Source: Amycolatopsis methanolica 239 (lineage in GTDB: Bacteria > Actinomycetota > Actinomycetes > Mycobacteriales > Pseudonocardiaceae). From it: a stretch of 64,000 nt of DNA. Below the pieces are notes generated by a model. It was not told where the DNA came from and searched no databases. It saw only the letters and a program-made list of their open reading frames with translations. Position numbers and translations under genes: made by a program. Of the stretch, positions 31,877 to 57,896 are shown piece after piece (position 1 is the first letter of the stretch; each line of letters opens with the position of its first letter). The stretch is taken from NCBI RefSeq assembly GCF_000739085.1, contig NZ_CP009110.1, forward strand, positions 3,286,001 through 3,350,000. Reading direction: 5' to 3'.

Positions 31877-32494
31877 TCAGCGCTGGACGGCGCCCCGGAG
31901 GAACGAGCGGATCGACTCGGCAAACAGCTTTTCGCCGGTCCGCCACTCGTTGGCCTTCACCGCGCTCGCCAGGGCGGGCTCCTTCTCGGCGTCCACGTGC
32001 GGAAAGATCCGGTTCCGGATGTCGGCCGGCTTGACGGCCTGGGTGAGCGCCGCGCCCAGGGTCAGGTTCTCCAGCCCGTCCAGGATCAGCACGTGCACCT
32101 CCTCCGGCACACCGGCGTCTCGCATGAGTTGCGCCGCGTCGTCGTAGCGTGCGCTCAGCAGGTCGCGGGGCACGTGCTCGAGCAGTACCGGTGCCGCGTT
32201 GGGGTGCCGGAGGACGACACGCCGGAAGTTGACGGCGAGGGTGACCAACCACTCCTGCCAGTCCGCGGGCTCGCGCCGTCGCGGCGCTGCCGCCTCCAGC
32301 ACGATGCTGCGCGCCACCCCGGCCATGATCTCGGCGCGGTCGGCGAAGTGGTGGTAGAGCGACGGCGCCTTCACCTCCAGCTCCCGCGCGAGGCGAGGCA
32401 GGCTGCACGCCGCAAGCCCGTCGGTGTCGATGATCTCCAGTGCCGTGCTGATCACCCGGTCACGACTGATCAGTGGCTGCGCGGGACGTGGCAT
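31877..32494 (-). CDS. TetR-family transcriptional repressor
   Basis: 205 residues. N-terminal TetR helix-turn-helix (RDRVISTALEIIDTDGLAACSLPRLARELEVKAPSLYHHF, residues about 12-55); the C-terminal helical domain would bind the inducer. It is divergent from the aldehyde dehydrogenase/Rieske operon. A palindromic site at 32508-32522 sits 14 bases upstream of its ATG, as expected for autorepression, and similar sites lie at three further promoters in the window. This makes it the best candidate for the local pathway regulator. Confidence 0.9.
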   Translation of the reverse strand: MPRPAQPLISRDRVISTALEIIDTDGLAACSLPRLARELEVKAPSLYHHFADRAEIMAGVARSIVLEAAAPRRREPADWQEWLVTLAVNFRRVVLRHPNAAPVLLEHVPRDLLSARYDDAAQLMRDAGVPEEVHVLILDGLENLTLGAALTQAVKPADIRNRIFPHVDAEKEPALASAVKANEWRTGEKLFAESIRSFLRGAVQR

Positions 32495-32507
32495 GACTCG
32501 ATTATGG

Positions 32508-32522
32508 CCTATCGGTATTAGG
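32508..32522. promoter_or_regulatory. TetR operator candidate A
   Basis: CCTATCGGTATTAGG; on the minus strand CCTAATACCGATAGG. CCTA/TAGG arms flank a 7-base centre. It lies immediately upstream of the TetR gene and matches site D (43971) at 11 of 15 positions and site B at 10 of 15. Confidence 0.6.
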
Positions 32523-32543
32523 TAGCCCGGCTCCCGCTTCCCC

Positions 32544-32584
32544 TTGCGCGACGGCGACCCTCCCCTTAACCTAAAGCCATTAGA
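32544..32584 (+). promoter_or_regulatory. Promoter and TetR operator candidate B
   Basis: TTGCGC (32544-32549) and TAACCT (32567-32572) are 17 bases apart and make a plausible promoter for the aldehyde dehydrogenase operon. CCTAAAGCCATTAGA (32570-32584) overlaps the end of the -10. Read on the minus strand it matches site D at 12 of 15 positions. Confidence 0.6.
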
Positions 32585-32605
32585 TGACGGTCGAGAGGAA
32601 CCCTT

Positions 32606-34060
32606 GTGGGACAGGGAGCAACGGTGCGCCAGGAACCCGCATTCTTCGTCGATGCGAGCTGGAGCCGGCCCACGGGCGGCTCGTTCGAGGTGGTCGAGGC
32701 GGCGAGCGGAGCGCCCCTCGGGGTGGTCGGCTCGGCCTCCGGCGCCGACGTCGACGCGGCGGTCACCGCGGCCCGGCGAGCCCTGGACGGGCCGTGGAGC
32801 CGCTGCCGGCCGGCGGAGCGCGCGCACGCCCTCGACCGGTTCGCGGCGGCGCTCAAGGCACGGGGCAGAGACACCGCGACGCTGGTCAGCCGCGAGAACG
32901 GGATGCCGATCGCGCTGTCGAAGGCGGTCAACGGCTTCGCTCCGGCCCAGATCATCGGCTACTACGCGCGGCTCGCCCGCGACCTCGAGGTCGAGGAGAG
33001 CCGCGCAGGGCTCTTCGGCGAGGTGCTGGTGCGGCGCGAGCCGGCCGGCGTGGTCGCCGCGATCGTGCCCTGGAACTACCCCCAGCCGCTGGCCGCGATG
33101 AAGATCGGCCCGGCGCTGGCCGCGGGGTGCACGGTGGTGCTCAAGTCCTCGCCGGAGACCGCGCTCGACGCCTGTGCGTTCGCCGAAGCCGCGCTCGCCG
33201 CCGACCTCCCGCCCGGTGTCCTCAACATCGTGCCGGGCGGCCGGGGCACAGGCGAGGCGCTGGTCGCCCACGCGGGCGTGGACAAGGTCGCGTTCACCGG
33301 CTCCACCGCGGCCGGGCGCGCCATCGGCGAGGTGTGCGGGCGCCTGCTGCGCCCGGTGACGCTCGAGCTCGGCGGCAAATCGGCCGCGATCATCGCCGAG
33401 GACGCCGACCTCGGAGCCTTCGGGCGGGCGCTGCCTGCGGTGTCCTTCGCCAACAACGGCCAGACCTGCCACGCGAGCACCCGGATCCTCGCCCCGGCCT
33501 CGCGCTACGACGAGGTGGTGGACCTGGTCACCACGGTCGCGCGCGGGCTCGTGGTCGGCGACCCGCTGGATCCGGCGACGCAGATCGGGCCGCTGGTGAG
33601 CAGCGCGCAGCGGGACCGGGTACTGGGCCACATCCGGGCCGGCCTGGCGAGCGGCGCGCGGCTCACCGCGGGAGGATCGGTTCCGGCGGACCGGCCGAAG
33701 GGCTGGTATGTGGAGCCGACGGTGTTCGCCGACGTCGACAACGCCGCGCCGGTGGCCCAGGACGAGATCTTCGGCCCCGTGCTGTGCGTGATCCCCTACG
33801 AGGGTGACGACCAGGCGGTGGCGATCGCGAACGACAGCGCCTATGGCCTCGCCGGCACGGTGTGGACCGCCGACGAGGAGCACGGCCGGGACATCGCGCG
33901 CCGCATCCGCACCGGCACCTTCGGCGTCAACACCTACGAGCTTGACCCGGTCGCCCCGTTCGGCGGGGTGAAGGCCAGCGGGCTCGGCCGCGAACTCGGG
34001 CCGGAAGGGCTGGAACCCTACGTCAGCCTGAAGTCGGTCTATACCACGGCCGGGCGCTGA
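32606..34060 (+). CDS. Aldehyde dehydrogenase
   Basis: 484 residues. Glutamate in LELGGKSA and nucleophile Cys288 in NNGQTCHASTR; FTGSTAAGRA for cofactor. GTG at 32606 follows GAGAGGAA; a GTG at 32624 with AGGGAG upstream is an equally good start and would remove six residues. It is a paralogue of the enzyme at 8979 (shared APFGG-KASGLGRELGPEGL tail). First gene of an operon with a ferredoxin reductase and Rieske oxygenase, and it probably oxidises an aldehyde derived from the oxygenase product or substrate. Confidence 0.9.
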   Translation: MGQGATVRQEPAFFVDASWSRPTGGSFEVVEAASGAPLGVVGSASGADVDAAVTAARRALDGPWSRCRPAERAHALDRFAAALKARGRDTATLVSRENGMPIALSKAVNGFAPAQIIGYYARLARDLEVEESRAGLFGEVLVRREPAGVVAAIVPWNYPQPLAAMKIGPALAAGCTVVLKSSPETALDACAFAEAALAADLPPGVLNIVPGGRGTGEALVAHAGVDKVAFTGSTAAGRAIGEVCGRLLRPVTLELGGKSAAIIAEDADLGAFGRALPAVSFANNGQTCHASTRILAPASRYDEVVDLVTTVARGLVVGDPLDPATQIGPLVSSAQRDRVLGHIRAGLASGARLTAGGSVPADRPKGWYVEPTVFADVDNAAPVAQDEIFGPVLCVIPYEGDDQAVAIANDSAYGLAGTVWTADEEHGRDIARRIRTGTFGVNTYELDPVAPFGGVKASGLGRELGPEGLEPYVSLKSVYTTAGR

Positions 34061-34062
34061 CC

Positions 34063-35025
34063 GTGCCGGGGAACGGTTCGGCCGCGGTCGAGATGGACGT
34101 CAAGGTCGTCGGTAAGGAACAGGTGGCCGACGGCGTCGTGCGGCTTGTCCTCCGCCGCTCCTGCGGTGAGGGCTTCCCGGCCTGGGAACCGGGTGCGCAC
34201 GTCGACCTCGTGCTGGATGAGGACCTGGTCCGCCAGTACTCGCTGTGCGGCGATCCCGGCCGGTCCGACGTCCTCGAGGTCGCGGTGCTGCGGGAGCCCG
34301 CCGGAAGGGGCGGCTCGGCCTTCGTGCACGACAAGGTGGAGGTGGGGGACCGCCTCCGGATCCGTGGCCCCCGCAACAACTTCCCGCTCGTCGAGGCGGA
34401 CGAGTACCTGTTCGTCGCGGGCGGAATCGGGATCACGCCCATTCTGCCGATGGTGCGCGCGGCCGCGGCCGCCGGTGCGCGGTGGCGGCTGGTCTACGGC
34501 GGACGCACCCGGAGGTCGATGGCCTTCCTGGAGGAACTGGCGGACTACGGCGAGCGGGTCCGGATCCGTTCGCAGGACGAGACCGGGCTGCTCGACCTTG
34601 CCGGCGAGCTCGCCGGGGCCGGTGAGAGTGCCGCTGTCTACTGCTGCGGGCCGGAAGGGCTCCTGCGGGCGATCGAGGACGAGTGCCGGGGCCGGCGCCC
34701 GGGCTGCCTGCACGTCGAACGGTTCAGCCCGAAGGCGCGGGACACCACGGTTCCGGATGGCCCATTCGAGGTCGAGCTGGCGGTGAGCGGGCGGACGCTC
34801 GAGGTGCCGCCCGGGAAGTCCATCGTCGGCGTTCTCGAAGAGGCCGGTGTGGACGTTCCCGTGTCCTGCCTCGAGGGCACCTGCGGAACGTGCGAAACCG
34901 CCGTGCTGGAAGGAGAACCCGATCATCGGGACTCGATCCTCACCGACGAGGAGCGGGCCCGCAACGACACGATGTTCCTGTGCGTGTCGCGAAGTCTGAC
35001 ACCACGGCTGCGCATCGACAGGTGA
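34063..35025 (+). CDS. Ferredoxin reductase (phthalate dioxygenase reductase type)
   Basis: 320 residues. A flavin domain (RQYSLCGDPG), a nucleotide domain (AGGIGITPILPM, CCGPEGLL) and a C-terminal plant-type [2Fe-2S] domain with Cys 269, 274, 277 and 307. It passes electrons from NAD(P)H to the Rieske oxygenase encoded 26 bases downstream, forming a two-component class IA system. GTG start 3 bases after the aldehyde dehydrogenase stop; an ATG at 34093 is possible. Close paralogue of the truncated reductase at 1-940. Confidence 0.93.
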   Translation: MPGNGSAAVEMDVKVVGKEQVADGVVRLVLRRSCGEGFPAWEPGAHVDLVLDEDLVRQYSLCGDPGRSDVLEVAVLREPAGRGGSAFVHDKVEVGDRLRIRGPRNNFPLVEADEYLFVAGGIGITPILPMVRAAAAAGARWRLVYGGRTRRSMAFLEELADYGERVRIRSQDETGLLDLAGELAGAGESAAVYCCGPEGLLRAIEDECRGRRPGCLHVERFSPKARDTTVPDGPFEVELAVSGRTLEVPPGKSIVGVLEEAGVDVPVSCLEGTCGTCETAVLEGEPDHRDSILTDEERARNDTMFLCVSRSLTPRLRIDR

Positions 35026-35051
35026 ACGGCCGGCGGAGAAAGGAGACCGAC

Positions 35052-36224
35052 ATGAACCAGGTGGAGACCGACCGGGAGGACCGGATCCGTCGAGCGTTGC
35101 ACCACCTGCGAGAAGGGACCACGGACCAGTGGGACGACGTCGCCGGGTTCGAGGCGCGCGAGTTCACTGACCCCGAAGTGGCTCGCCGCGAGCGGGAGCG
35201 GATCTTCGGCCGGGTGCCCTCGATCGTCGCGCATTCGTCGGAGGTGCCGAAGCCGAACGACTTCATCACGCTCCGGATGCCGCTCAACAACGTCCTGATC
35301 GTCCGTCAGAAGGACGGCAGTGTGCGCGGCTTCGTCAACCTGTGCCGCCACCGGGGCGCTCTGCTGGAGGAGCAGGAGTCCGGCCGGTGCCGCCTGTTCT
35401 CCTGCGGCTACCACCGCTGGTCCTACGACCTGGACGGCTCGCTGCGGGCGATCACCCGGGACAACACCTTCGGCGAGGTCGACCGGTCGAAGTACGGGCT
35501 CGTCGAACTGCCCACCGAGGAACGCCACGGGTTCATCTGGATGGTCGACTCGGCGGACGCCAAAATCGACGTCGCCGCCTGGCTGGGCCCGGAGATGGAC
35601 GCGATCCTGGCCGGATACGACCTGGACGGTCTGCAATGCGTGCGCGCCGAGGGGTTCGACGAGCCGGTCAACTGGAAGATCATGCAAGACGCCTTCCTGG
35701 ACGGCTACCACATCCAGTACGCCCACCCGAACAGCGCGGCCAAACACATCCACACCAACGTGATGACCTTCGAGGACTTCGGCAGGCACTGCCGGTTCGT
35801 CGCGCCTCGCAAGACGATCGACAAGTGGATCGAGGACGACCCGGGCGAGACCAGCCTCGCCGCGCACGTCACCGAGACGCACTTCGTCGGACCGAACTGC
35901 ACACTGCTCCGGCAACCCGATCACTTCCAGCTGCTGACCTTCCGGCCCGATCCCAGCCGGCCGGACTGGTCGCGCATGGAGATGCGGCTGATCGTGCCGC
36001 CGGTGGAGCGCAGCGGGATGGACCCCGAGCGGTGGCAGAAGCTCTGGGACAAGAACTGGGAGATCCTGCTGGCGGTGCTGCATCGCGAGGACTTCCCGCT
36101 CCTGCGCGCGTCGCAGGTGGGCATGGCCAGCGCGAGCGCGGGCCCGATGGTGCTCGGCCGCAACGAGGTCGCCAACCACCTGTTCCACCGTGAGACGCGG
36201 CGCCTGGTCGAGGAGAGCTCGTGA
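35052..36224 (+). CDS. Rieske non-haem iron oxygenase, alpha subunit
   Basis: 390 residues. The Rieske [2Fe-2S] ligands are Cys98, His100, Cys118 and His121. The mononuclear iron site is His220 and His225 in a DGYHIQYAH motif, with bridging Asp217 and a likely third ligand in HREDFPL. It adds oxygen to an aromatic, alicyclic or alkylammonium-type substrate. No beta subunit is encoded nearby, so it is probably a homotrimer fed by the reductase at 34063. AGGAGA precedes the ATG. The GTGA overlap with the GNAT gene shows a continuing operon. Confidence 0.93.
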   Translation: MNQVETDREDRIRRALHHLREGTTDQWDDVAGFEAREFTDPEVARRERERIFGRVPSIVAHSSEVPKPNDFITLRMPLNNVLIVRQKDGSVRGFVNLCRHRGALLEEQESGRCRLFSCGYHRWSYDLDGSLRAITRDNTFGEVDRSKYGLVELPTEERHGFIWMVDSADAKIDVAAWLGPEMDAILAGYDLDGLQCVRAEGFDEPVNWKIMQDAFLDGYHIQYAHPNSAAKHIHTNVMTFEDFGRHCRFVAPRKTIDKWIEDDPGETSLAAHVTETHFVGPNCTLLRQPDHFQLLTFRPDPSRPDWSRMEMRLIVPPVERSGMDPERWQKLWDKNWEILLAVLHREDFPLLRASQVGMASASAGPMVLGRNEVANHLFHRETRRLVEESS

Positions 36225-37108
36225 TCACCTGCACCTGGCGGCAGGCTCTCGACGCGGACGAGGCGTGGGAGGTGCGGGAGCTGGTCGCCGAGGCGGCGGA
36301 GTACGACGAGGAGGCCGGGTTCTCCACGGTCACCCCGCCGGGGGAGACACGGGGGCACGAGCTGCTCGTGCGGATCCAGCCCGGTGAGGGCGAGCGGGTC
36401 TGGCCGCTGGCGGCCTACCTGCGCGTGGACGTGGACGAAGGCGTCGGTGCCGTGCAGTTCGTGGTGCGGCCGAGGTTCCGATCCCTGGGCGTGGCCACCT
36501 CGGTGTTCGAAAAGATCGGCCTGCCCGGCTCGTCGGCCGGGAACTGGTGCGGCACCTCCGCCAGGGAACTGCGCATCTGGGCGCACGGCGACCATCCCGC
36601 CGCGCACCGGATGGCGCGGCGGTTCGGCGCTCGGCCCGTGTCCCGGATGTGGGCGCTGGTGCGGAGGCTGGACGCCGCCGCGGAGTGGCCATCCGGCCCG
36701 CTCACGGTGCGGGCCGCGACGGCCGCCGAGGCGGCCCGGGTGGCGGGGATCGAGGCTGGGGCGACGGGCCTGGTCAGTCCGGCCGGATGGGAGCACCTGC
36801 TCCCCGGCAGCGTCGCGCTGGTGGCGGTCGGCGAGTCCGGCGAACCCCGTGGCGTGGTGCGCTTGAGCGGCCCCGCGGCGAACGGCTCGCCGGGAACCGC
36901 CACCGGCGTCGTGCTCACGCTCGCCGTGGCGGGCAGCGGGGACCGCGGCGTGGTACGGGCGTTGCTCGGGGCGGGCCTCGACCACCTCCGGCGCGGCGGG
37001 GCGGGGAAGGTCGAGCTGTACCTGGATTCCGGCAACCGGACAGGAGTGGCGGTGGCCCGTGAGTTCAGTTTCGAGCACGACCGTTCCGACGTCTGCTACC
37101 TGGTCTGA
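36221..37108 (+). CDS. Tandem GNAT acetyltransferase (mycothiol synthase-like layout)
   Basis: 295 residues that read as two GNAT modules. The first has the acetyl-CoA-binding turn VRPRFRSLGVATSVFEKIG near residue 85. The second, weaker module ends VELYLDSGNRTGVAVAREFSFEHD, as in the family C-terminus. Two-domain GNATs of this size include mycothiol synthase MshD, but the similarity here is to the architecture only. It starts on a GTG overlapping the Rieske stop. The acceptor is unknown; acetylation of an amine or of a pathway intermediate is possible. Confidence 0.8.
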   Translation: MITCTWRQALDADEAWEVRELVAEAAEYDEEAGFSTVTPPGETRGHELLVRIQPGEGERVWPLAAYLRVDVDEGVGAVQFVVRPRFRSLGVATSVFEKIGLPGSSAGNWCGTSARELRIWAHGDHPAAHRMARRFGARPVSRMWALVRRLDAAAEWPSGPLTVRAATAAEAARVAGIEAGATGLVSPAGWEHLLPGSVALVAVGESGEPRGVVRLSGPAANGSPGTATGVVLTLAVAGSGDRGVVRALLGAGLDHLRRGGAGKVELYLDSGNRTGVAVAREFSFEHDRSDVCYLV

Positions 37109-37148
37109 GATCCGGTTCTCCGCTGCGAAAGTCCCAAGTGGACCGCGG

Positions 37149-37178
37149 TTGACCGCGATAAACCTAAAGTGATAAGGT
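37149..37178 (+). promoter_or_regulatory. Promoter overlapped by TetR operator candidate C
   Basis: TTGACC (37149-37154) and TAAGGT (37173-37178) with an 18-base spacer form a clear promoter about 85 bases before the aldehyde dehydrogenase start. CCTAAAGTGATAAGG (37163-37177), framed by perfect AACCT/AGGTT arms, covers the spacer and the -10. It matches site B at 11 of 15 positions. Confidence 0.65.
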
Positions 37179-37264
37179 TGAGCGACGGTGGGTGCGCTTC
37201 CCATTATCAGCAATCGGCTTTTTGAGCACTGTCGGTCAACGAAGACGAAGGACAGCAAAGCCTG

Positions 37265-38767
37265 ATGTCGAATTTCAGCAACTTCATCGGCGGCTCCTGG
37301 CGCGGCTCCGACGCGGCGCGCCTCCCGGTCGACGACCCCTCCACCGGTGAGGTGACCGGATCCGTCCCCGACAGCGGCGCCGCCGAGGTGGACGCGGCCG
37401 TCGCCGCCGCCCGCCAGGCGTTCGAGACCGGGCCCTGGGCGCGCATGACCCCGGCGGACCGGGCGACGGTACTCCGCGACCTGGCCTCGGCCCTGGAAGC
37501 GCGGTTCGACGACCTCGTCGACGGGCTGGTCGCCGACACCGGGTGCAGCGTGCGGATGTGCCCGATGTTGCAGGCCGGGGCGCCACTGGCGCACCTGCGC
37601 GATTTCGCGGACATGGCGCCGCTGTTGGAGAAGCCGGTGCCCTATCCCATCCAGTCGACGCCGGGATTCGGCCAGTGGGAACTGCACCGGGAACCGGTCG
37701 GTGTCGTCGGAGCTTTCACGCCCTACAACTTCCCGTTGTTCATCGCGGTCTGGAAGATCGCGCCGGCCTTGCTCGCGGGCAACACCGTGGTGGTCAAGCC
37801 ATCGCCCCTGACGCCGTTCGGGCTCGACGCCTTCGCCAGGGCGGCCGAGGAGGTCGGCTTGCCGCCGGGGGTGGTCAACGTCGTGCACGGCGACCGCGTC
37901 GCCGGTGAGGCGCTCGTGGCCAGCCCGGGCGTCGACCTGATCACCTTCACCGGCAGCACCGCCGTCGGAAAGCGTGTGCTCGCCGCCGCGGCCGGCACCG
38001 CCAAGGACGTGATCCTGGAGATGGGCGGTAAGTCGCCGGCCGTGGTCCTGCCGGACGCCGACGTCGAGCTCGCCGTGCGCGGAACCCTGTTCAGCAGCAT
38101 GATGCACGGCGGGCAGGCGTGCGTGGCGACCACGCGGATGCTGGTCCCGGACAGCAGGTACGACGAGTTCCTCGAGGTCCTGCGCGCCCGTTCGGAACGT
38201 CTGGTGGTAGGCCCCGCGGCGGACTTCGCCACCGACGTGGGCCCTGTGGTCAGCCAGGCGCAGCGGGTGAAGGTCGAGAAGTACGTGTCCGCGGCCGTGG
38301 AGCGCGGCGCGCGGGTGCTCACCGGCGGCGAGCGGCCGTCCGGGGTTCCGGACGGTGGCCACTACGTGGCGCCCACCGTCCTCGTCGACCTCGACAACGA
38401 CAACCCGGCGGCCTCCGACGAGATCTTCGGCCCGGTGCTGTCGGTGCTGCGTTACCGCGACGTCGACGACGCGATCCGGATCGCGAACGACACCCAGTAC
38501 GGGCTGGCCGCCGCCGTCTGGTCGGCCGACCTGGAGCGAGCGCGGTCGGTGGCCGCCCGGTTGCAGGGTGGGCTGGTGTGGATCAACGACGTCGCGCAGG
38601 CCGACGTCGCGCGGACCCCGTTCGCGGGGAAGAAGCAGAGCGGTGTCGGGACCGAACTCGGGCCGGACGGCCTGTTCGCCTACACCAAGGTGAAGAGCCT
38701 CTACACCGCGTTGGACGACAACCTCGACGCGCGCCCGTACGGTGCGGTCGGCAGTGACTGGGAGTGA
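37265..38767 (+). CDS. Aldehyde dehydrogenase
   Basis: 500 residues. Catalytic Cys286 in HGGQACVATTR and glutamate in the variant LEMGGKSP; FTGSTAVGK for cofactor. It is a paralogue of the enzyme at 1095 (shared DTGC-VRM and GQWE-HREP blocks). The tail KSLYTALDDNLDARPYGAVGSDWE also resembles that of 1095. It leads the operon containing the ferredoxin, P450, SCP2, alcohol dehydrogenase and ligase, so it probably oxidises the aldehyde made by P450 plus alcohol dehydrogenase. Confidence 0.91.
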   Translation: MSNFSNFIGGSWRGSDAARLPVDDPSTGEVTGSVPDSGAAEVDAAVAAARQAFETGPWARMTPADRATVLRDLASALEARFDDLVDGLVADTGCSVRMCPMLQAGAPLAHLRDFADMAPLLEKPVPYPIQSTPGFGQWELHREPVGVVGAFTPYNFPLFIAVWKIAPALLAGNTVVVKPSPLTPFGLDAFARAAEEVGLPPGVVNVVHGDRVAGEALVASPGVDLITFTGSTAVGKRVLAAAAGTAKDVILEMGGKSPAVVLPDADVELAVRGTLFSSMMHGGQACVATTRMLVPDSRYDEFLEVLRARSERLVVGPAADFATDVGPVVSQAQRVKVEKYVSAAVERGARVLTGGERPSGVPDGGHYVAPTVLVDLDNDNPAASDEIFGPVLSVLRYRDVDDAIRIANDTQYGLAAAVWSADLERARSVAARLQGGLVWINDVAQADVARTPFAGKKQSGVGTELGPDGLFAYTKVKSLYTALDDNLDARPYGAVGSDWE

Positions 38768-38771
38768 GCCC

Positions 38772-38969
38772 GTGGCCGACCAGCGGATCGCGATCGACCG
38801 GGAACGGTGCGCGGGGCACGGCCGGTGCTACACCGTCGCTCCGGAGATATTCGAACCCGACGACGAGGGTTTCGCCGTGGTGACCAGAACGCCCGGTGGT
38901 GAGCGGCTGGAGAACGCCCTGGCAGCCGCCGTGCGCAACTGCCCCGAACGTGCCGTCGTCGTCGACTGA
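38772..38969 (+). CDS. Single-cluster ferredoxin (CxxHxxC type)
   Basis: 65 residues. The cluster ligands are Cys13, Cys19 and Cys57 (NCPERAV), with His16 in the place of the fourth cysteine: CAGHGRC. Ferredoxins of this CxxHxxC...CP type carry [3Fe-4S] or variant clusters and serve actinobacterial P450s. The gene lies 33 bases before a P450 and is its obvious electron donor, with FprB (60735 or 24730) as probable reductase. GTG at 38772 is preferred because an upstream ATG at 38742 would run back into the aldehyde dehydrogenase gene. Confidence 0.92.
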   Translation: MADQRIAIDRERCAGHGRCYTVAPEIFEPDDEGFAVVTRTPGGERLENALAAAVRNCPERAVVVD

Positions 38970-39002
38970 ACGTCCCCGCAACCGTAACCGGAGAGGAGAT
39001 CC

Positions 39003-40229
39003 ATGACCACGACCCCGAAGGCGGCCGCGGACGAGGAACTGCGGACCGATTTCGACATCCACGATCCCGCGAACGCCGATAACGTCTACGAACGTTACGC
39101 CGAGCTGCGCGCGAAGTGCCCGGTCGCGCACTCCAGCGCCTACGGCGGCCACTGGGTCGCCACCCGCTACGACGACATCCACGAGATCGTGCGGAACCCG
39201 GAGGTGTTCTCCAGCGAGTGCGTGAACATCCCGCCGACCATCGGCCAGGACGGCCCGATGATCCCGCTGGAGGTGGACCCTCCCGACCACACGACCTACC
39301 GGCAGCTGCTGACCCCCTTGTTCTCGCCGACGCGGATGGCCGCGATCGAGCCGGACGTCCGCCGGATCGTCGTCGAGCTGCTGGACGGCATGGCGGGCAA
39401 GGAGAAGTGCGACTTCATCACCGACTTCGCGAAGCCGTTGCCCACCAAGGTGTTCTTGACACTGATGGGCTGGCCGATGTCGGACACCGCGAAGTTCCAC
39501 GAGTGGACCGACACCATTGTGCTGGGCAAGCCGGGCGCGTCGGAGGAGGAGGCCACCGCGGTGCGGATGGCCGCGGCGATGGAGGTCTACGCCTACTTCG
39601 CCGAGATGCTCGACGACCGCATGGCGGACCCGTCGTCCGGGCCGGACGACGTCACCTCCGTGCTGGTCAACGGGAAGTTCGGGGACCGCCCGCTGACCCA
39701 GTTCGAAATCCTCAACACGTTGTTCGTGATGATGATCGGCGGCCTGCACACCGTGCAGGGCCAGCTCGCGCACAGCGTCATCTACTTCGCCGAGCACCCG
39801 GACCGGCGCAGGCAGCTCGTCGACGACCCGGACCTGGTGCCTTCCGCGGTGGAGGAGATGCTGCGGTACGAGTCCGCCGTGTCCCCGGCGCGGGTGGTCA
39901 AGCAGGACACCGAGCTCGGCGGTGTGCGGCTGACCGCGGGCGACCGGATCCTCATCCCGCTGGGCGCGGCCAACCGCGACCCGGAGAAGTTCGACAACCC
40001 CGACGAGGTCGACCTCACCCGGGAACCGAACCCGCACCTGGCGTTCGGCGGCGGACGGCACCGGTGCCTGGGCTCGCACCTGGCGCGCATCGAGCTGCGC
40101 GTCGCGTTCGAGGAGCTGCACCGGCGGTTCCCCGACTACCGGCTCGACCCCGCCGACCCGCCGCAACGCCACCTGAGCCAGGTCAAGGGTGTCGAGCGGC
40201 TTCCCCTCGTGCTCGGCCAGTCGGTCTGA
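39003..40229 (+). CDS. Cytochrome P450
   Basis: 408 residues. Haem motif FGGGRHRCLG with Cys355; ExxR in EEMLRYE. The I-helix reads MIGGLHTVQGQ: His replaces the usual Asp/Glu before Thr. Its relative at 3520 has the normal Asp, so the change arose within this lineage. GGAGAGGAG precedes the ATG. It sits between its ferredoxin and an SCP2 lipid-carrier protein, suggesting a hydrophobic substrate delivered by the carrier. The promoter is the site-C promoter upstream of 37265. Confidence 0.93.
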   Translation: MTTTPKAAADEELRTDFDIHDPANADNVYERYAELRAKCPVAHSSAYGGHWVATRYDDIHEIVRNPEVFSSECVNIPPTIGQDGPMIPLEVDPPDHTTYRQLLTPLFSPTRMAAIEPDVRRIVVELLDGMAGKEKCDFITDFAKPLPTKVFLTLMGWPMSDTAKFHEWTDTIVLGKPGASEEEATAVRMAAAMEVYAYFAEMLDDRMADPSSGPDDVTSVLVNGKFGDRPLTQFEILNTLFVMMIGGLHTVQGQLAHSVIYFAEHPDRRRQLVDDPDLVPSAVEEMLRYESAVSPARVVKQDTELGGVRLTAGDRILIPLGAANRDPEKFDNPDEVDLTREPNPHLAFGGGRHRCLGSHLARIELRVAFEELHRRFPDYRLDPADPPQRHLSQVKGVERLPLVLGQSV

Positions 40230-40269
40230 GCGGACGTTCAACGCATCAACGGAGATTCGGAGAATCAGC

Positions 40270-40659
40270 ATGGCGGTCAAGTTCGGTTCCCTCGACTTCT
40301 ACCAGGCGATGGCCGACGAACTCAACAACGACCCGGAGTGGGCGGAGAAGGGCAAGAAGCTCTCCTACACGATGGTCTACAACTACGAGGCGCCCGTCGA
40401 GGGCTCGTTCTTCGTGGAGTTCGACCAGGGCAGGGTCGTCCAGGTCCGGGACGCCTCGGCCCAGGACGTCGAAGACGCGAACTTCGTGATCTCGGGTTCC
40501 AGCGACGTGTGGCGCGGAATCTTCGAGAAGAAGATCAACCCGACCGTCGCGCTCACCCGCGGGCAGCTGCGAGTGCGCGGCAAGATGGCTCAGCTGCTGA
40601 AGAACATGTCCGCCTTCCAGCACGTCATCGTCGCCATGACGCGCGTGGACTTCGAGTAG
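40270..40659 (+). CDS. SCP2 sterol-carrier-domain protein
   Basis: 129 residues, a stand-alone SCP2-type lipid-binding domain: GKKLSYTMVYNYEAPVEGSFFVEFDQGRV for the sheet, FVISGSSDVWRGIFEKKINPTVALTRGQLRVRGKMAQLLKN for the ligand tunnel and C-terminal helices. Soluble, without a signal peptide. SCP2 domains bind sterols, fatty acyl-CoAs and other hydrophobic molecules. Between the P450 and the alcohol dehydrogenase it probably holds or presents the hydrophobic substrate to these enzymes. An ATG at 40270 with GGAGATTCGGAG nearby was chosen. Confidence 0.9.
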   Translation: MAVKFGSLDFYQAMADELNNDPEWAEKGKKLSYTMVYNYEAPVEGSFFVEFDQGRVVQVRDASAQDVEDANFVISGSSDVWRGIFEKKINPTVALTRGQLRVRGKMAQLLKNMSAFQHVIVAMTRVDFE

Positions 40660-40676
40660 AAGGGGCCGGTGAGACG

Positions 40677-41786
40677 ATGAAGTCCAGGGCAGCCGTTCTG
40701 TTCGAAGCGCCGGGCAAGTGGGACGTCGTCGAGGTCGACGTCGACGAGCCCCGCGACCACGAGGTGCTGGTCCGCTACGTGTCGGCGGGCCTGTGCCACT
40801 CCGACGACCACCTGACCAAGGGCGACGTGCCCTCGGCTCACTACCCCTACTGCGGCGGGCACGAGGGCGCCGGCATCGTCGAGGCTGTCGGGCCGGGTGT
40901 ACGCGACCTGCAGGTCGGCGACCACGTCGTCGCCGCTTTCATCCCCGGCTGCGGCCGGTGCCGGTGGTGCGCGGCCGGGATGCAGAACCTGTGCGACAAC
41001 GGCGCGTTCATGATGCAGGGCACCCAGCTCGACGGGACGTTCCGCCTGCACCACAACGGTGTCGACGTCGCGCAGTGTTCGCTCGTGTCCACTTTCTGCG
41101 AGTACAGCGTGCTGCCGGAGTGGGGCGCGGTGAAGATCGATCCGGACATCCCGCTGGACAAGGCCGCGCTGGTCGGCTGCGGTGTCGCGACGGGCTGGGG
41201 CTCGGCGGTCAACGCGGCCCAGGTGCGGCCCGGCGACGTGGTGATCGTCATGGGGGTCGGCGGCATCGGCATCAACGCCGTGCAGGGCGCCGCGCACGCC
41301 GGCGCGAGCCGCGTCATCGCGGTGGACACCGTCCCGTTCAAGCGGGAGTTCGCGCTGGGCCTTGGGGCGACCGACGCCGTCGAGACGATGACGCAGGCGA
41401 CCGATCTGGCCCAGTCGCTGACCTTCGGCCAGGGAGCCGACTCGGCCATCGTGACGGTCGGTGTGGTCAAGCCCGAGCACGTCGGCGACGCCTTCGCCGC
41501 GGTGCGCAAGGCCGGCACGGTCGTGGTCACCGGTGTCGCCAACATCGACGAGACCACCATCCCGGTGAGCCTGTTCGAACTGGCCATGTTCCAGAAACGC
41601 ATCCAGGGCGCGCTCTACGGCATGATGTCCCCGTCGTCCGCCACACCGTTCCTGCTCGACCTTTACCGGGCGGGCAAGCTCAAGCTCGACGAGCTCGTCA
41701 CCCGCCGGTACCCGCTCGAAGAGATCAACCAGGGTTACGAGGACATGCACGCCGGAGTCAACATCCGCGGCGTCATCGACTTCTGA
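40677..41786 (+). CDS. NDMA-dependent (mycofactocin-type) zinc alcohol dehydrogenase
   Basis: 369 residues, medium-chain zinc alcohol dehydrogenase. Catalytic zinc ligands Cys40 (AGLCHSDDH) and His in GGHEGAGIVE; structural zinc cysteines in CGRCRWCAAGMQNLC; Rossmann motif GVGGIGINAVQGA. The FMMQGTQLDGTFR block and overall sequence match the NDMA-dependent Rxyl_3153-like family, whose tightly bound NAD is thought to be reoxidised by mycofactocin. It probably oxidises the primary alcohol formed by the P450 to an aldehyde for the aldehyde dehydrogenase at 37265. Confidence 0.9.
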   Translation: MKSRAAVLFEAPGKWDVVEVDVDEPRDHEVLVRYVSAGLCHSDDHLTKGDVPSAHYPYCGGHEGAGIVEAVGPGVRDLQVGDHVVAAFIPGCGRCRWCAAGMQNLCDNGAFMMQGTQLDGTFRLHHNGVDVAQCSLVSTFCEYSVLPEWGAVKIDPDIPLDKAALVGCGVATGWGSAVNAAQVRPGDVVIVMGVGGIGINAVQGAAHAGASRVIAVDTVPFKREFALGLGATDAVETMTQATDLAQSLTFGQGADSAIVTVGVVKPEHVGDAFAAVRKAGTVVVTGVANIDETTIPVSLFELAMFQKRIQGALYGMMSPSSATPFLLDLYRAGKLKLDELVTRRYPLEEINQGYEDMHAGVNIRGVIDF

Positions 41787-41832
41787 CCCACCGCTTCCGG
41801 ATCCCCTGCCGTTCTCAGTGTCGAGGAGTGTC

Positions 41833-43350
41833 ATGTCCGCATCGGTGGTGTCCGCGCTGCGCTGGTGGGCGCGGACCAAGGGTCAGCAGGCCGCCCTGCG
41901 CGTCGGGGACGACGAGGTCGGTTACCGCGGTCTGCAGGACTGGACGAGCCGGGTGGCTCGATGGCTGGCAGCGCAGGGGGTCCGGCCGGGTGACCGGGTG
42001 TGCGTTCTCGGGGGCAACTCGGTGGAGTGGTGTGCGACCGCGGTGGGTGTGCTGAAGGCGGGTGCCGTACTGGTCCCGCTCAACCCGCGCCTGGTGGCCG
42101 CCGAGATCCGCAAGATCACCGACGACGCCGGGGCGGTGTTGATCATCGCCGCGCCCGAGCTGCGTTCGCTCGCCGAGGACGCGGCCGCGGCCGGACCACC
42201 GCTGCCGGTCGCCGGCTTTGCGGAAGTCGCGGCGATGCGGGACGGCCCGGGCGACGACCACGCCGTGGAGATCGGTGAGGACGACCCGGCCATGATCCTG
42301 TTCACCAGCGGCACGACCGGCCTGTCGAAGGGGGTCGTATGCACCAACCGGACCCTGCTGAGCATCGTCTTCGAGGCGTCGCTGACCGAGGCCGGACTGC
42401 GGCCCGGGTCCCGCACGCTCCTGGTGCTGCCGCTCGCCTTCACGCCCGGCCTGGTGTGGGGGCTGGCGATGACGCTCGTGCTGGGCGGGACCATCGTGGT
42501 CGAGCGCGAGTTCGACCCGGGCCGCGCGGTGCGGCTGATCGACGAGCACGGCATCGACGCGTTGTTCGGCGTGCCGCTCATCTTCGGCGCGATGGCGAAG
42601 TCGCCGGAGTTCGCGACCGCCCAGCTGTCGTCGCTCAAGACCGCGCTCACCGGCGGCGCGGCGGTGCCCGTCCCGTTGCTGGAGGCGTGGGGGAGCAAGG
42701 GCGTCAAGCTCCGCCAGATCTACGGCATGACGGAGGCGGGCGGGGTCGCGACCAGCACCGGGGTGGACGACGCGGCGGCGCATCCGGACACCTGCGGCAC
42801 CGGGTCGATCTTCACCGAGTTCAAGGTCGTGCGGGAGGACGGCTCGGCGTGCGAGCCGGGTGAGCCGGGCGAGATCATCCTCCGCGGGCCCGGTGTCACA
42901 CCGGGGTACTGGCAGGATCCGGAGAACACGGCACGGGCCCTGCGCGAGGGCTGGCTGCACAGCGGCGATCTCGGCGTGACGACCGAGGACGGCAGACTGA
43001 AGTTCGTCGACCGGATCAAGGACCTGATCATCTCGGGCGGCATCAACATCTCGCCGATCGAGATCGAGCAGGTGATCTCCGGGCTGGACGATGTCGAGGA
43101 GGTCGCGGTGATCAGCGCCGCCGACGAGAAGTTCGGCGAGACACCGGCGGCGATCGTCGTCAGCCGCGGCCACCGCGATCCACATCGGATCGTCACCGAC
43201 TGCGGCCGTCTCCTGGCCGACTACAAGATCCCGCGGTACGTGGTGTTCCGCGACGAGCCGTTGCCGCGGCTGCCCAGCGGGAAGCTCGCCAAGGTCGCCA
43301 TCCGCAAGGAGTACGCCGACATCCCGTCGACGCACCCGAAGGTCCGGTAA
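41833..43350 (+). CDS. Acyl-CoA synthetase (AMP-forming)
   Basis: 505 residues. P-loop FTSGTTGLSKGVVC near residue 156, QIYGMTEAGG, GWLHSGDLGV, and the catalytic lysine in LPSGKLAKVAI. It activates the acid produced by the preceding oxidation steps. GAGGAG lies 5 bases before the ATG; an in-frame GTG at 41818 is less likely. It ends one base before the ECF sigma factor start, so the two are in one transcript. It is the third AMP ligase in the window. Confidence 0.92.
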   Translation: MSASVVSALRWWARTKGQQAALRVGDDEVGYRGLQDWTSRVARWLAAQGVRPGDRVCVLGGNSVEWCATAVGVLKAGAVLVPLNPRLVAAEIRKITDDAGAVLIIAAPELRSLAEDAAAAGPPLPVAGFAEVAAMRDGPGDDHAVEIGEDDPAMILFTSGTTGLSKGVVCTNRTLLSIVFEASLTEAGLRPGSRTLLVLPLAFTPGLVWGLAMTLVLGGTIVVEREFDPGRAVRLIDEHGIDALFGVPLIFGAMAKSPEFATAQLSSLKTALTGGAAVPVPLLEAWGSKGVKLRQIYGMTEAGGVATSTGVDDAAAHPDTCGTGSIFTEFKVVREDGSACEPGEPGEIILRGPGVTPGYWQDPENTARALREGWLHSGDLGVTTEDGRLKFVDRIKDLIISGGINISPIEIEQVISGLDDVEEVAVISAADEKFGETPAAIVVSRGHRDPHRIVTDCGRLLADYKIPRYVVFRDEPLPRLPSGKLAKVAIRKEYADIPSTHPKVR

Positions 43351-43351
43351 C

Positions 43352-43900
43352 GTGCCGGGCGACGACGGTTCCTGGGACCTTGTGCGCGCCGTCCAGGCCG
43401 GCGACGTGGCGACCTTCGACCGGATCTACCAGCGGTACCAGCCCGCGCTCCTCGGCTACTTCCGCGGCAGGCAGTTCGACCCGGCGACCGCCGAAGACCT
43501 CACGAGCGAGACGTTCGTCCGCGCCCTGCAGGCGATCCACCAGGTGTCCGACCGGGGCCGGGATCTGGCCGCCTGGTTGCTGACCATCGCACGCAACCTG
43601 GCGCTGGACCACCGCCGGTCCGGACGGGTGCGGCGGGAGATGCCCACGTCCGAGTTGCCGGAGTGGGGGGCGGCGCCGGTGGACGGGCCGGAGAAGCGCG
43701 TGCTCGCGGCGATCGAACTCGACGAGGCGGCGCGGCGCATCGCGCTGCTGACCGTCGAACAACGACAGTGCCTCCTGCTGCGGCGCGTGCACGGTCTGTC
43801 GGTCACCGAGACCGCCGCGGCGATGCGCCGTTCGGAGACCGCGGTGCGGGCGCTGCACCACCGCGCGGGACGGCAGCTCAGCGCGCTCGCCACGAGCTGA
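43352..43900 (+). CDS. ECF-type RNA polymerase sigma factor
   Basis: 182 residues. Region 2 (DRIYQRYQPALLGYFRGRQ through AEDLTSETFVRALQ and LAAWLLTIARNLALDHRR) binds core polymerase and -10 DNA. Region 4 (LTVEQRQCLLLRRVHGLSVTETAAAM, then RSETAVRALHHRAGRQL) contacts the -35. GTG at 43352 comes one base after the ligase stop. No anti-sigma factor is encoded on either side, which is unusual for this class. Its position just before the mce promoter suggests it could drive that operon or act in positive feedback (inference). Confidence 0.9.
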   Translation: MPGDDGSWDLVRAVQAGDVATFDRIYQRYQPALLGYFRGRQFDPATAEDLTSETFVRALQAIHQVSDRGRDLAAWLLTIARNLALDHRRSGRVRREMPTSELPEWGAAPVDGPEKRVLAAIELDEAARRIALLTVEQRQCLLLRRVHGLSVTETAAAMRRSETAVRALHHRAGRQLSALATS

Positions 43901-43942
43901 CGCGCGCCCTCCGGGCAATTCCTTTCTCAGACCACAGTGGAC

Positions 43943-43985
43943 TTGACGGAAAGTTCACAGCTGTGTTTAAACTAATGGCAATAGG
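43943..43985 (+). promoter_or_regulatory. mce operon promoter overlapped by TetR operator candidate D
   Basis: TTGACG (43943-43948) is a strong -35. TTTAAA (43966-43971, 17-base spacer) or TAAACT (43968-43973, 19-base spacer) is the -10. ACTAATGGCAATAGG (43971-43985) starts inside the -10 and matches site B (minus strand) at 12 of 15 and site A at 11 of 15 positions. A protein bound here would block transcription initiation of the mce operon. Confidence 0.65.
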
Positions 43986-44053
43986 TAAGCGATGACGCTG
44001 CGGCCGGCGAGCGTGCCTCCTTCCGGGAACGTGTCGCCGTCGAACGGGAGACA

Positions 44054-44968
44054 ATGATGTCGAATTCCGAATGGCGGCCTCCGCGCGGGGACGGCGCCGG
44101 ATCGGGGCTGGGGTCCGCGGCGGTCCTCGCCGGGCTGCCCACCGGGCCCGCGCCGGTGTTCGAGAAGCCGCCGGTGGCTGGCAAGCTGCCGGCCGCGGTG
44201 TTCGGTCCGCTCGAACAGGCCGGTGCGATGGCCCAGTTGCTCGGCAAGGTCGTCTGGAGCGCGGTCCGCCACCCGGCCGGCTACTGGCGGGCGGTGCGCG
44301 ACGAGATGTACACCCTGCTCAAGCTCTGCTGGTTCCCGATGATCCTCGCGGTCTTCACCTTCGGCGTGATGGTCGCGATCCTGGGCATCAACTTCACCAC
44401 CCTGATCGGCGCGAACAACCGATACGGCCAGTACTTCTTCATCGCCAGTGTCCGGGAGTTCTCCCCGTGGATCAACTCGATGGTGGTCGCCGGGATCATC
44501 GGCGCCGCACTGGCCGCGGACCTCGGCGCCCGCCGGGTGCGCGAGGAGTTGGACGCGCTGCGCGTGCTCGGCATGGATCCGGTGCGCGAGCTGGTGCTGC
44601 CGCGGGTGGTGTCCGCGGTGTTCATGACCGCGCTGCTGAACCTGGTGGCGATCATGATCGCGATCCTGTCCGGGCTGTTCGGGATCATCGTGTTCGGCGG
44701 GGTGTCCGGAGGCGAGTACTTCTCCACGTTGTACGCGAACCTCACTCCGGTCGAGGTGTGGGGGAGTTTCGTGAAGAGCGCCGTCTTCGGCCTCGTGATC
44801 GGCGTTGTGTGCTCCTACAAGGGGTTCACCGCGCAGGGCGGCGCGATTGGGGTCGGCCGCGCGGTCAACCAGGCCGTGGTCATCTCGTTCGTGGTGATCT
44901 GGCTGGTGAACTTCGCGTTCAGCTCGATCATGCTCGGGCTCAACCCGGAAATGCAGACGGTTCGCTGA
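44054..44968 (+). CDS. yrbEA: YrbE/MlaE-family permease A of Mce transporter
   Basis: 304 residues. A cytoplasmic N-terminal tail of about 85 residues is followed by five or six membrane segments and the MlaE signature EELDALRVLGMDPVRELVLPRV. It pairs with the permease at 44982 and the ATPase at 45822 to form the inner-membrane ABC unit that powers lipid or steroid import through the Mce hexamer. ATG at 44054 or 44057 (GGGAG spacing favours the second). First gene of the mce operon, about 80 bases after promoter D. Confidence 0.93.
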   Translation: MMSNSEWRPPRGDGAGSGLGSAAVLAGLPTGPAPVFEKPPVAGKLPAAVFGPLEQAGAMAQLLGKVVWSAVRHPAGYWRAVRDEMYTLLKLCWFPMILAVFTFGVMVAILGINFTTLIGANNRYGQYFFIASVREFSPWINSMVVAGIIGAALAADLGARRVREELDALRVLGMDPVRELVLPRVVSAVFMTALLNLVAIMIAILSGLFGIIVFGGVSGGEYFSTLYANLTPVEVWGSFVKSAVFGLVIGVVCSYKGFTAQGGAIGVGRAVNQAVVISFVVIWLVNFAFSSIMLGLNPEMQTVR

Positions 44969-44981
44969 GGAAGGGCGTTCG

Positions 44982-45788
44982 ATGACGAGCGTGCGCAACG
45001 CCCGGCCGACGGGCAGGTTCGCCGGTCTTCTGACCAACACCTCCGACGTGGTCCGGTTCTCCGCCGGCGCGCTCGGCAGTGTCGGCAAGACCCGGATGTA
45101 CTTCTCCGAGGTGTTGCGCCAGGCCGGGATCCTGGTGCTCTCCAGCGGCCTGGTGATCTGGGCGATGGAGTTCGTGATCGGCGCGGTGTTCGCCGTGGAG
45201 GGCCACTACATCAGCCGGCAGTTCGGCGCCCAGGGGCTGGTCGCGGTGTTTCCCGCGCTCGGCGGGCTGCGGACCTGCGCTCCCGAGATGTGGGGCTGGA
45301 TCCTCGCGGCGAAGGTCGGCTGCGGCATCGTCGCGGAGCTGGGGTCGATGCGCATAACCGAGGAGATCGACGCGCTGGAGGTCATGGGCATCCGGCCCAA
45401 ACCCTACCTGGTGGGGACGCGGGTGGTGGCGGCCTGGATCGCGATGCCGTTCCTCTACCTCGTCGGACTCGGCCTGATGTACATCGCGTCATACCTGATG
45501 CTGGTGCCGGTGCTCGGCACGGTGTCCGAGGGCGGCTTCTCCGCGGTGCTGTGGGCGTTCCAGAGCCCGCTCGATGTGCTTTTCAGTCTGTTGTGGACGA
45601 TGGTCGCGGGCACACTGATCGTCCTCGTGGCGTGTTACTACGGCTTCAACGCCCGCGGCGGCCCGGTCGGTGTCGGGATGAACACCGCGAAATCGATGCT
45701 CGTCAACATGGTGCTGATCAGCGTGGTCGGCATGATCTGCCAGCAGCTGTTCTGGGGCGGTTTCCCGAACGCGCCCATCGGAAACTGA
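44982..45788 (+). CDS. yrbEB: YrbE/MlaE-family permease B of Mce transporter
   Basis: 268 residues. Hydrophobic, with the MlaE signature RITEEIDALEVMGIRPKPYLVGTRV and C-terminal GFNARGGPVGVGMNTAKSM. It is the second transmembrane subunit and starts 13 bases after permease A behind GAGGAAGGGCG. Two adjacent, different YrbE genes are standard for actinobacterial Mce loci. Confidence 0.94.
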   Translation: MTSVRNARPTGRFAGLLTNTSDVVRFSAGALGSVGKTRMYFSEVLRQAGILVLSSGLVIWAMEFVIGAVFAVEGHYISRQFGAQGLVAVFPALGGLRTCAPEMWGWILAAKVGCGIVAELGSMRITEEIDALEVMGIRPKPYLVGTRVVAAWIAMPFLYLVGLGLMYIASYLMLVPVLGTVSEGGFSAVLWAFQSPLDVLFSLLWTMVAGTLIVLVACYYGFNARGGPVGVGMNTAKSMLVNMVLISVVGMICQQLFWGGFPNAPIGN

Positions 45789-45821
45789 TCCCGCCACGTG
45801 AAGAACCCTTCGGAGGAACCG

Positions 45822-46649
45822 ATGTTGCATCCGGCCGGGAACGAGCCCGGGGGAGTCGCGACGACTCAGCCCATCCGGCCACTGCCGGTCCCCGCGGCGC
45901 CGACCGTGGAGATCCGCGAGGTCTACAAGTCGTTCGGCTCGTTCGACATCCTGCGCGGCCTCAACCTGAGCTTCGCCGCCAACGCGATCACCACGGTGCT
46001 GGGGCCGTCGGGCACCGGCAAGAGCGTGCTGCTCAAGCACATCGTCGGCCTGCTTGAACCGGACGCGGGCGAGGTGCTGGTGTTCGGTGACGACATCTGG
46101 AAGGCGAGCGAGGAACAGCGCTACGAACTGCGGAAGCGGTTCGGGGTCCTGTTCCAGGACGGCGCGCTGTTCGGCTCGATGGACGTGTTCGACAACGTCG
46201 CGTTCCCGCTGCGCAAGCACACCGACCTGCCGGAGTCGGAGATCACCGAGATCGTGATGAACCGGTTGCGCGAGGTCGGCCTGGAAGCGGCGAAGAACAA
46301 GGAACCCGGCTCGATCTCCGGCGGGATGCGCAAACGCGCCGGGTTCGCCCGTGCACTGGTGATGAACCCCGAGGTGGTGCTCTTCGACGAGCCGGACTCC
46401 GGTTTGGACCCGGTGCGCACCAGCCTGCTCAACGACCTGATCCTGCAGATGCACGCCGAGCACGGCGGCACCTACGTGCTGGTCACCCACGACATCCGCA
46501 CCGCGCGGAAGGTCAGCGACTACGTCGGCCTGATCTGGAAGGGCAAGCTCATCCACTACGGGCCCACCGAGGAGGCGTTCAACTCCGACGACCCGTTCGT
46601 GCGCCAGTTCCTCGCCGGTGACTCGGCCGGCCCGCTCGGGATGGACTGA
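45822..46649 (+). CDS. mceG: ABC transporter ATPase of Mce system (MceG/Mkl type)
   Basis: 275 residues. Walker A GPSGTGKS near residue 62, Q-loop FGVLFQDGALFGSMDVFDNV, signature ISGGMRKRAGFARAL, Walker B VVLFDEPDSGLD, switch His in VTHDIRTA, and a C-terminal extension FNSDDPFVRQFLAGDSAGP typical of MlaF/MceG. It energises the YrbE permeases. ATG at 45822 with GGAGGAACC upstream is preferred to GTG 45798. In mycobacteria this ATPase is usually encoded away from the mce loci; here it lies inside the operon. Confidence 0.93.
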   Translation: MLHPAGNEPGGVATTQPIRPLPVPAAPTVEIREVYKSFGSFDILRGLNLSFAANAITTVLGPSGTGKSVLLKHIVGLLEPDAGEVLVFGDDIWKASEEQRYELRKRFGVLFQDGALFGSMDVFDNVAFPLRKHTDLPESEITEIVMNRLREVGLEAAKNKEPGSISGGMRKRAGFARALVMNPEVVLFDEPDSGLDPVRTSLLNDLILQMHAEHGGTYVLVTHDIRTARKVSDYVGLIWKGKLIHYGPTEEAFNSDDPFVRQFLAGDSAGPLGMD

Positions 46650-57708: not shown

Positions 57709-57896
57709 TCTCCCTGCTGCTCCTCGCCGGCGCGGTGGTCCTGGCGGTGCTCGGCCGGTGGGCGAGCGCGAACCTGGAGGCACTCGCCGACGGGCCCGGT
57801 CCCGCCCACCGGCGCGCCGTCCTCCGGCGCGGGTACCACACCTGCCACGGGGTCGCGGTGCTGTTCGTCGTCGCCGCCGTCGTCCGCCTGCTGTGA
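57705..57896 (+). CDS. Small two-helix membrane protein
   Basis: 63 residues. Two hydrophobic segments (SLLLLAGAVVLAVLG, about 3-17, and GVAVLFVVAAVVRLL, about 49-63) are joined by a charged loop containing YHTCHG. GTG start overlaps the isomerase stop and its own stop overlaps the next GTG. No family recognised. Its location suggests a small accessory subunit of the transporter. Confidence 0.65.
   Translation: MISLLLLAGAVVLAVLGRWASANLEALADGPGPAHRRAVLRRGYHTCHGVAVLFVVAAVVRLL

Follow-up and report, generated by a model that had tools for sequence, protein, structure and literature searches.

The DNA considered here, referred to as the window, is a 64-kb stretch from a genome of 7.24 Mb in one contig, whose genus is that of two sequenced Amycolatopsis. 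To the right of a gene for a TetR-family protein, genes run forward in three transcription units (32606-37108, 37265-43900 and 44057-57896 from gene calls, their limits as operons being predicted), and a copy of one short palindrome, termed operator below, heads each of the three between 32.5 and 57.9 kb, with a further copy at tetR. The features are as follows.

31877-32494, minus strand: TetR-family repressor gene, 205 aa, TetR_N and TetR_C_1 (domain matches)
32506-32524, no strand: operator 1, 19 bp, core 32508-32522 (matrix and promoter alignment)
32568-32586, no strand: operator 2, 19 bp, core 32570-32584, upstream of the ALDH/reductase/Rieske operon (matrix and 19-bp pattern)
32606-34060, plus strand: aldehyde dehydrogenase (ALDH), start at 32606 or 32624 (PF00171)
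34063-35025, plus strand: FAD/NAD/2Fe-2S reductase, likely partner of the Rieske oxygenase
35052-36224, plus strand: Rieske ring-hydroxylating oxygenase alpha subunit
36221-37108, plus strand: MshD-like GNAT protein, below the NCBIfam cut-off
37161-37179, no strand: operator 3, 19 bp, core 37163-37177, overlapping the putative ALDH/P450 -10 (matrix and alignment)
37265-38767, plus strand: aldehyde dehydrogenase, first gene of the ALDH/P450 operon
38772-38969, plus strand: 4Fe-4S single-cluster ferredoxin
39003-40229, plus strand: cytochrome P450, best solved match CYP125MRCA (a name implying ancestral reconstruction)
40270-40659, plus strand: SCP2-type sterol-carrier-like protein
40677-41786, plus strand: NDMA-dependent alcohol dehydrogenase (ADH; TIGR03989, above cut-off)
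41833-43350, plus strand: AMP-forming acyl-CoA ligase
43352-43900, plus strand: ECF-type sigma factor, closing the ALDH/P450 operon
43969-43987, no strand: operator 4, 19 bp, core 43971-43985, abutting the putative mce -10 (matrix and alignment)
44057-57896, plus strand: mce operon, with two MlaE/YrbE permeases, its own ABC ATPase and six Mce (MlaD) proteins, and as further members an MMPL-like protein, a PPIC isomerase and a 63-aa ORF

The TetR_N helix-turn-helix of the 31877-32494 protein scores 33 bits against a gathering score of 24. Between 32.4 and 57.8 kb only three gaps between genes exceed 60 bp and together they hold the four operators; a matrix scan of the window revealed no operator in the next gap after the mce operon, at 57896. 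In the stretch 45822-57708 that operon encodes an ABC ATPase of its own, something that many actinobacterial mce operons lack, together with a PPIC prolyl isomerase and a protein of 760 aa that weakly resembles MMPL. The mycothiol-synthase-like GNAT gene (36221-37108) adjoins the Rieske oxygenase gene here and in several other genera.

The first-pass annotation had drawn attention to four 15-mers, and these are indeed present, at 32508-32522, 32570-32584, 37163-37177 and 43971-43985; gene calls and domain matches agree with its placing of them at the promoters of tetR and of the ALDH/Rieske, ALDH/P450/ADH and mce operons. Its figure of 10 to 12 shared positions of the 15 has to be lowered, to 8 to 11 for same-strand pairs or 9 to 12 in the better orientation. 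The operator as a whole is a 19-bp palindrome, about AACCTAAWNNNWTTAGGTT, and the only places in the window within three mismatches of CCTAATNNNATTAGG are the four sites, each with exactly two. Could they simply be chance AT-rich palindromes of the kind found in promoter regions? Crude counting leaves this some room, since by mismatch count shuffled versions of the window average 1.46 matches and four are reached in 9 of 100 shuffles. In the whole genome, MCTAATNNNATTAGG with up to two mismatches is found at 11 places, four of them being the noted sites (within 11.5 kb of the 7.24 Mb), and a reversed-pattern control is commoner than the core (22 and 21 rows versus 10 and 11); the 19-bp pattern with up to three mismatches has seven places, three of them at the locus, versus six for its reversed control. 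The raw number of core matches thus shows no genome-wide enrichment, and because mismatch counts in both window and genome were too weak, a matrix derived from relatives was used instead.

The matrix was trained on 50 unique upstream sites from relatives and none from the window (they were picked by core similarity, at most three mismatches and upstream of a gene, so their independence is one of genomic origin and is not motif-blind). It ranks the four operators highest in the window, at 28.1 (operator 2), 28.0, 26.3 and 15.0, the next best place scoring 7.4 and the best of 100 Markov sequences 13.4. A matrix from the 30 non-Amycolatopsis sites gives the same four at the top (27.0, 23.6, 23.5 and 16.4; next 5.9), operator 1 at tetR being the weakest with either matrix (15.0 or 16.4). 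Equally good matches at random places are not found within the 64-kb window. The four sites are real: the wide gap obtained with the matrix from other genera, together with the conservation of the orthologous promoters described below, contradicts the chance explanation, whose remaining probability is vanishingly small. Of the seven other core matches in the genome, six score 2.6 to 9.8 and one 14.8, a value like that of the weakest window site; this one, CCTAAATGTTTTAGG (L009 1501-1515, genome 3877556-3877570), falls within the final part of a called gene, just upstream of the following gene, which is on the reverse strand.

Close homologues of the TetR protein are present in 3 of 19 genomes of the genus (E <= 1e-30) and in 14 of 394 genomes of a sample of the class (E <= 1e-27, with eight first-look candidates scored per genome), the genome of origin being included both times. 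The relatives' set consists of 20 fetched stretches amounting to 524 kb, of which 41 kb is upstream, 471 kb coding and 12 kb other DNA; two loci with distant TetRs, G000b and Phyc, with one and no core match at up to three mismatches, were left out of the counts, matrices and promoter alignments, as they were from the spacer and permutation tests. At up to two mismatches the core is found 25 times upstream, never in coding and never in other DNA, and at up to three the figures are 51, 4 and 2. Matrix scores of at least 15 occur at 75 places, none inside a called gene and only one lacking a called start within 400 bp, a count that is partly circular as the training sites come from the same stretches. 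When the CCTAAT half-site was searched with spacers of 0 to 8 and up to two mismatches, a spacer of 3 gave 25 matches and a spacer of 8 gave 8, with none for the others. Among 90 letter permutations of the half-site, coding DNA included and again up to two mismatches, only TCATCA surpasses CCTAAT (41 versus 25). When each of the 4096 possible half-sites was ranked blind on its raw number of upstream occurrences at spacer 3, CCTAAT came 30th, the top words being GC-rich, and the same palindrome appears in the top list as AACCTA-N7 and ACCTAA-N5.

The sites are kept upstream of orthologues, at the mce and ALDH/P450 promoters of two other Amycolatopsis. The mce promoter has the identical 15-mer in G009 and ACTAAAGCCAATAGG in G018, and the ALDH/P450 promoter operator is also found in G009, G018, G071, G093 and G127; in G018 and G009 operator 1 does not keep its position with respect to the start of tetR. 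In other actinomycete families, at loci close to relatives of the 31877-32494 TetR, the operator stands ahead of genes for Rieske proteins, ALDHs, CoA ligases and importers. The G018 cluster (C57, L042/L043) also contains another TetR paralogue, the second, with 66% identity, and a further strong operator precedes its homologue of the CoA-transferase gene, a place where the window has no such site. In many genomes of the class sample AACCTAAGTGGGTTCGGTC is found in unaltered form at one or two places each; this may be part of a conserved gene and no operator.

An overlap or abutment with -10 elements had been claimed for three of the promoters. A sigma-70 scan of the three intergenic regions found no promoter, and for this reason promoter boxes were taken from alignment of orthologues, which makes the overlap plausible. 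With three Amycolatopsis aligned, TTGACG stands 18 nt before TTAAAC at the mce promoter and TTGACC 17-18 nt before TAAGGT at the ALDH/P450 promoter, with the boxes at both touching or overlapping the operator; G071, G093 and G127 have TTGGAC or TTGGAG at the ALDH/P450 -35 place instead of TTGACC. At tetR, CATAAT is just before the ATG and the core of operator 1 is 13 nt upstream of it. A rival view starts from the ECF sigma factor gene (43352-43900), which is directly before the mce promoter and whose homologues are likewise placed in G018 and G009: the motif might be a promoter element recognized by that factor and not an operator. Its palindromic nature, its occurrence in loci that have no ECF homologue (matches were found in 2 of 22 stretches and in none of the other 20) and a distance to the start codon that ranges from about 10 to over 200 nt led to this being set aside as very improbable.

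Which protein reads the palindrome? The first-pass annotation assigned all four sites to the neighbouring TetR, and the assignment gains support from comparative sequence evidence of three sorts found by computation, namely linkage of gene and operator across families, their co-occurrence in genomes and covariation of recognition residues with operator letters. As to co-occurrence, at least three 19-bp matches above control are present in 7 of 14 genomes that have the TetR versus 19 of 380 that do not (hand count; Fisher 6e-6), and, when the control is not subtracted, in 8 of 14 versus 44 of 380 (Fisher 9e-5). All but one of the 19 genomes without a close TetR belong to a single family, f31, in three examined genomes of which 19 of 23 sites carry a CTAAC or CGAA half.

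The half-site of tetO, the operator of the tetracycline repressors, is CCTATC, and the half-site here, CCTAAW, differs from it at positions 2 and 3, those read by Arg28 and Gln38. These are the sole TetR side chains that hydrogen-bond bases, guanine +2 and adenine +3 (PMC7102968), with Arg28 contacting G and Gln38 contacting A, and CTATC within the tetO half (PMC2723105). Across the DNA-reading domain the alignment of the 31877-32494 protein with TetR(D) has no gaps; the protein retains Pro39, Leu41, Tyr42 and His44, has Ser for Thr40 and His for Trp43, and carries, in the alignment numbering of the 205-aa protein, Pro33 and Ala43 as the counterparts of Arg28 and Gln38. The DNA ahead of 57 TetR homologues was searched for CTA...TAG palindromes with positions 2 and 3 left free; 16 of the 57 have one (24.5 kb), versus 4 of 57 for control DNA (50.9 kb of gene interiors and downstream DNA). 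C is at -2 in 16 of 16 half-sites of homologues with Arg and in 4 of 18 of those with Pro (Fisher 2.3e-6, uncorrected for kinship and so only a guide because related sequences are not independent). Relatives with Pro in the Arg28 column lack a site scoring at least 15 within 400 bp upstream of their own gene in 9 of 21 cases. In genus g79, chosen for its unexplained operator matches, 3 of 12 fetched sites have a TetR homologue at a distance of 130-183 bp; each of these homologues has Arg, and each of the three sites has C at -2 in both halves. The other 9 have no TetR homologue within 1.5 kb. Six Arg-keeping homologues (L023, L024, L027, L033, L035 and L039) have the exact palindrome ACTAACNNNGTTAGT upstream and, as judged from their sequences, are a second, related TetR-operator group in the bacterial family of the source.

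An alternative is that a different member of the subfamily reads the palindrome, with the neighbouring TetR controlling something else: the genome has 22 matches to the 31877-32494 protein at E <= 0.001, there are several paralogues in G018 and G009, and the palindrome of the Arg-column homologues is closely similar. Nevertheless, the next best relative in the genome is just 43% identical over residues 3-153, the 10 kb around it has a single core match with three mismatches, and in the various genera the motif is concentrated near close relatives of the 31877-32494 TetR, so that another reader of these sites is improbable.

The likeness to TetR(D) and tetO extends to the TetR_N and TetR_C_1 domains in both proteins and, for the DNA, to the 15-bp length of the palindrome, its centre and its CCTA outer half-site. 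The differences are that Arg28 and Gln38 are replaced by Pro and Ala with operator positions 2 and 3 changed, and that, where tetracycline repressors have a divergent tetracycline efflux gene, the divergent gene here is for an ALDH and the neighbours are catabolic and mce genes; the Arg28/Gln38 pair and the efflux gene, marks of the tetracycline-repressor class, are both missing. A palindromic operator at the own or a neighbouring promoter, typical of the TetR family at large, is present as far as sequence goes. KstR, which is linked to mce4 and cholesterol catabolism, has a different palindrome, TnnAACnnGTTnnA, and an enzyme set that looks different from that of the Amycolatopsis locus. It is similar in being a TetR-type repressor tied to lipid degradation, in its case the mycobacterial lipid-degradation regulon (PMC1995591). 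Mce3R of M. tuberculosis, described as a TetR-like repressor of an mce operon (PMC2277422), has a double TetR motif and a non-palindromic site (PMC11667970), whereas the present protein is a single 205-aa unit with a palindrome. The best solved-structure match, 2G7G (Rha04620; E 1.1e-17), was deposited as a putative regulator, and searches of plasmids for relatives of the TetR and Rieske proteins yielded best places below 60% identity and no function. TetR control of mce genes or lipid catabolism is therefore already known in principle from KstR and Mce3R. A literature search of titles and abstract beginnings recognized no paper on the 205-aa TetR or its operator, and the regulator with its altered recognition residues, the operator and the importer exchange considered below are apparently new as far as that search reaches.

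Very probably, on the comparative evidence, the TetR of 31877-32494 acts on the four operators to repress its own gene and the three units, and is released by a compound of the pathway. A dimer would bind the AACCTAAWNNNWTTAGGTT-like sites, thereby holding down tetR, the ALDH-reductase-Rieske-GNAT unit, the ALDH-ferredoxin-P450-SCP2-ADH-CoA ligase-ECF sigma unit and the mce importer unit; at or beside the -10 of the catabolic and mce promoters it would block RNA polymerase. The releasing compound would come from the pathway and is probably either its imported substrate or one of the early acid or CoA intermediates, with the outcome that uptake and oxidation of what is presumably one shared substrate would start together. 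The enzyme set (CYP125-like P450, SCP2, NDMA-type ADH, ALDH and CoA ligase) points to a lipid of isoprenoid- or steroid-like kind that undergoes terminal oxidation and activation with CoA, though this is a guess.

In some other lineages the operator is found before importers of different types. In G114 and G396 it is about 180 bp before the gene for a Peripla_BP_6 binding protein accompanied by Liv-type permease genes, with ATPase genes also at these loci (Pfam-checked in G114), and in G157 it is 184 bp before a gene whose product resembles Peripla_BP_4, narrowly below the cut-off, in the company of ABC and BPD_transp_2 genes. G071 has a weaker site (17.0) 44 bp before the gene for a 428-aa protein near a Liv-type permease; the G127 homologue of that protein (72% identical) has no Pfam match, and no site scoring at least 15 is present at the importer genes of G127 and G111. 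A tentative and somewhat doubtful possibility is that a catabolic regulon, marked by the TetR-operator pair, extends through several actinomycete families and keeps much of its enzyme set while the importer is exchanged: Mce in Amycolatopsis, a Liv-type binding-protein/ABC system in two other families and, in a further genus, an ABC system of the Peripla_BP_4-like type, all of them with this operator in front.

To our knowledge most mce importers have no known cargo. The genome has 14 MlaE/YrbE matches in seven pairs, pointing to about seven mce loci, and none of the seven other core matches has a further MlaE match within 15 kb. When a repressor is linked to a single mce locus it offers a simple handle, as the compound that releases it is probably the cargo or its first product, and the replacement of Arg28 by Pro, matched by a change in the operator, amounts to nature's own test of specificity in the TetR recognition code. 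If the importer exchange is true, an Mce importer and a binding-protein ABC importer could stand in for each other in the uptake of one compound or of closely related ones, and membership of the regulon would identify what an orphan mce system carries.
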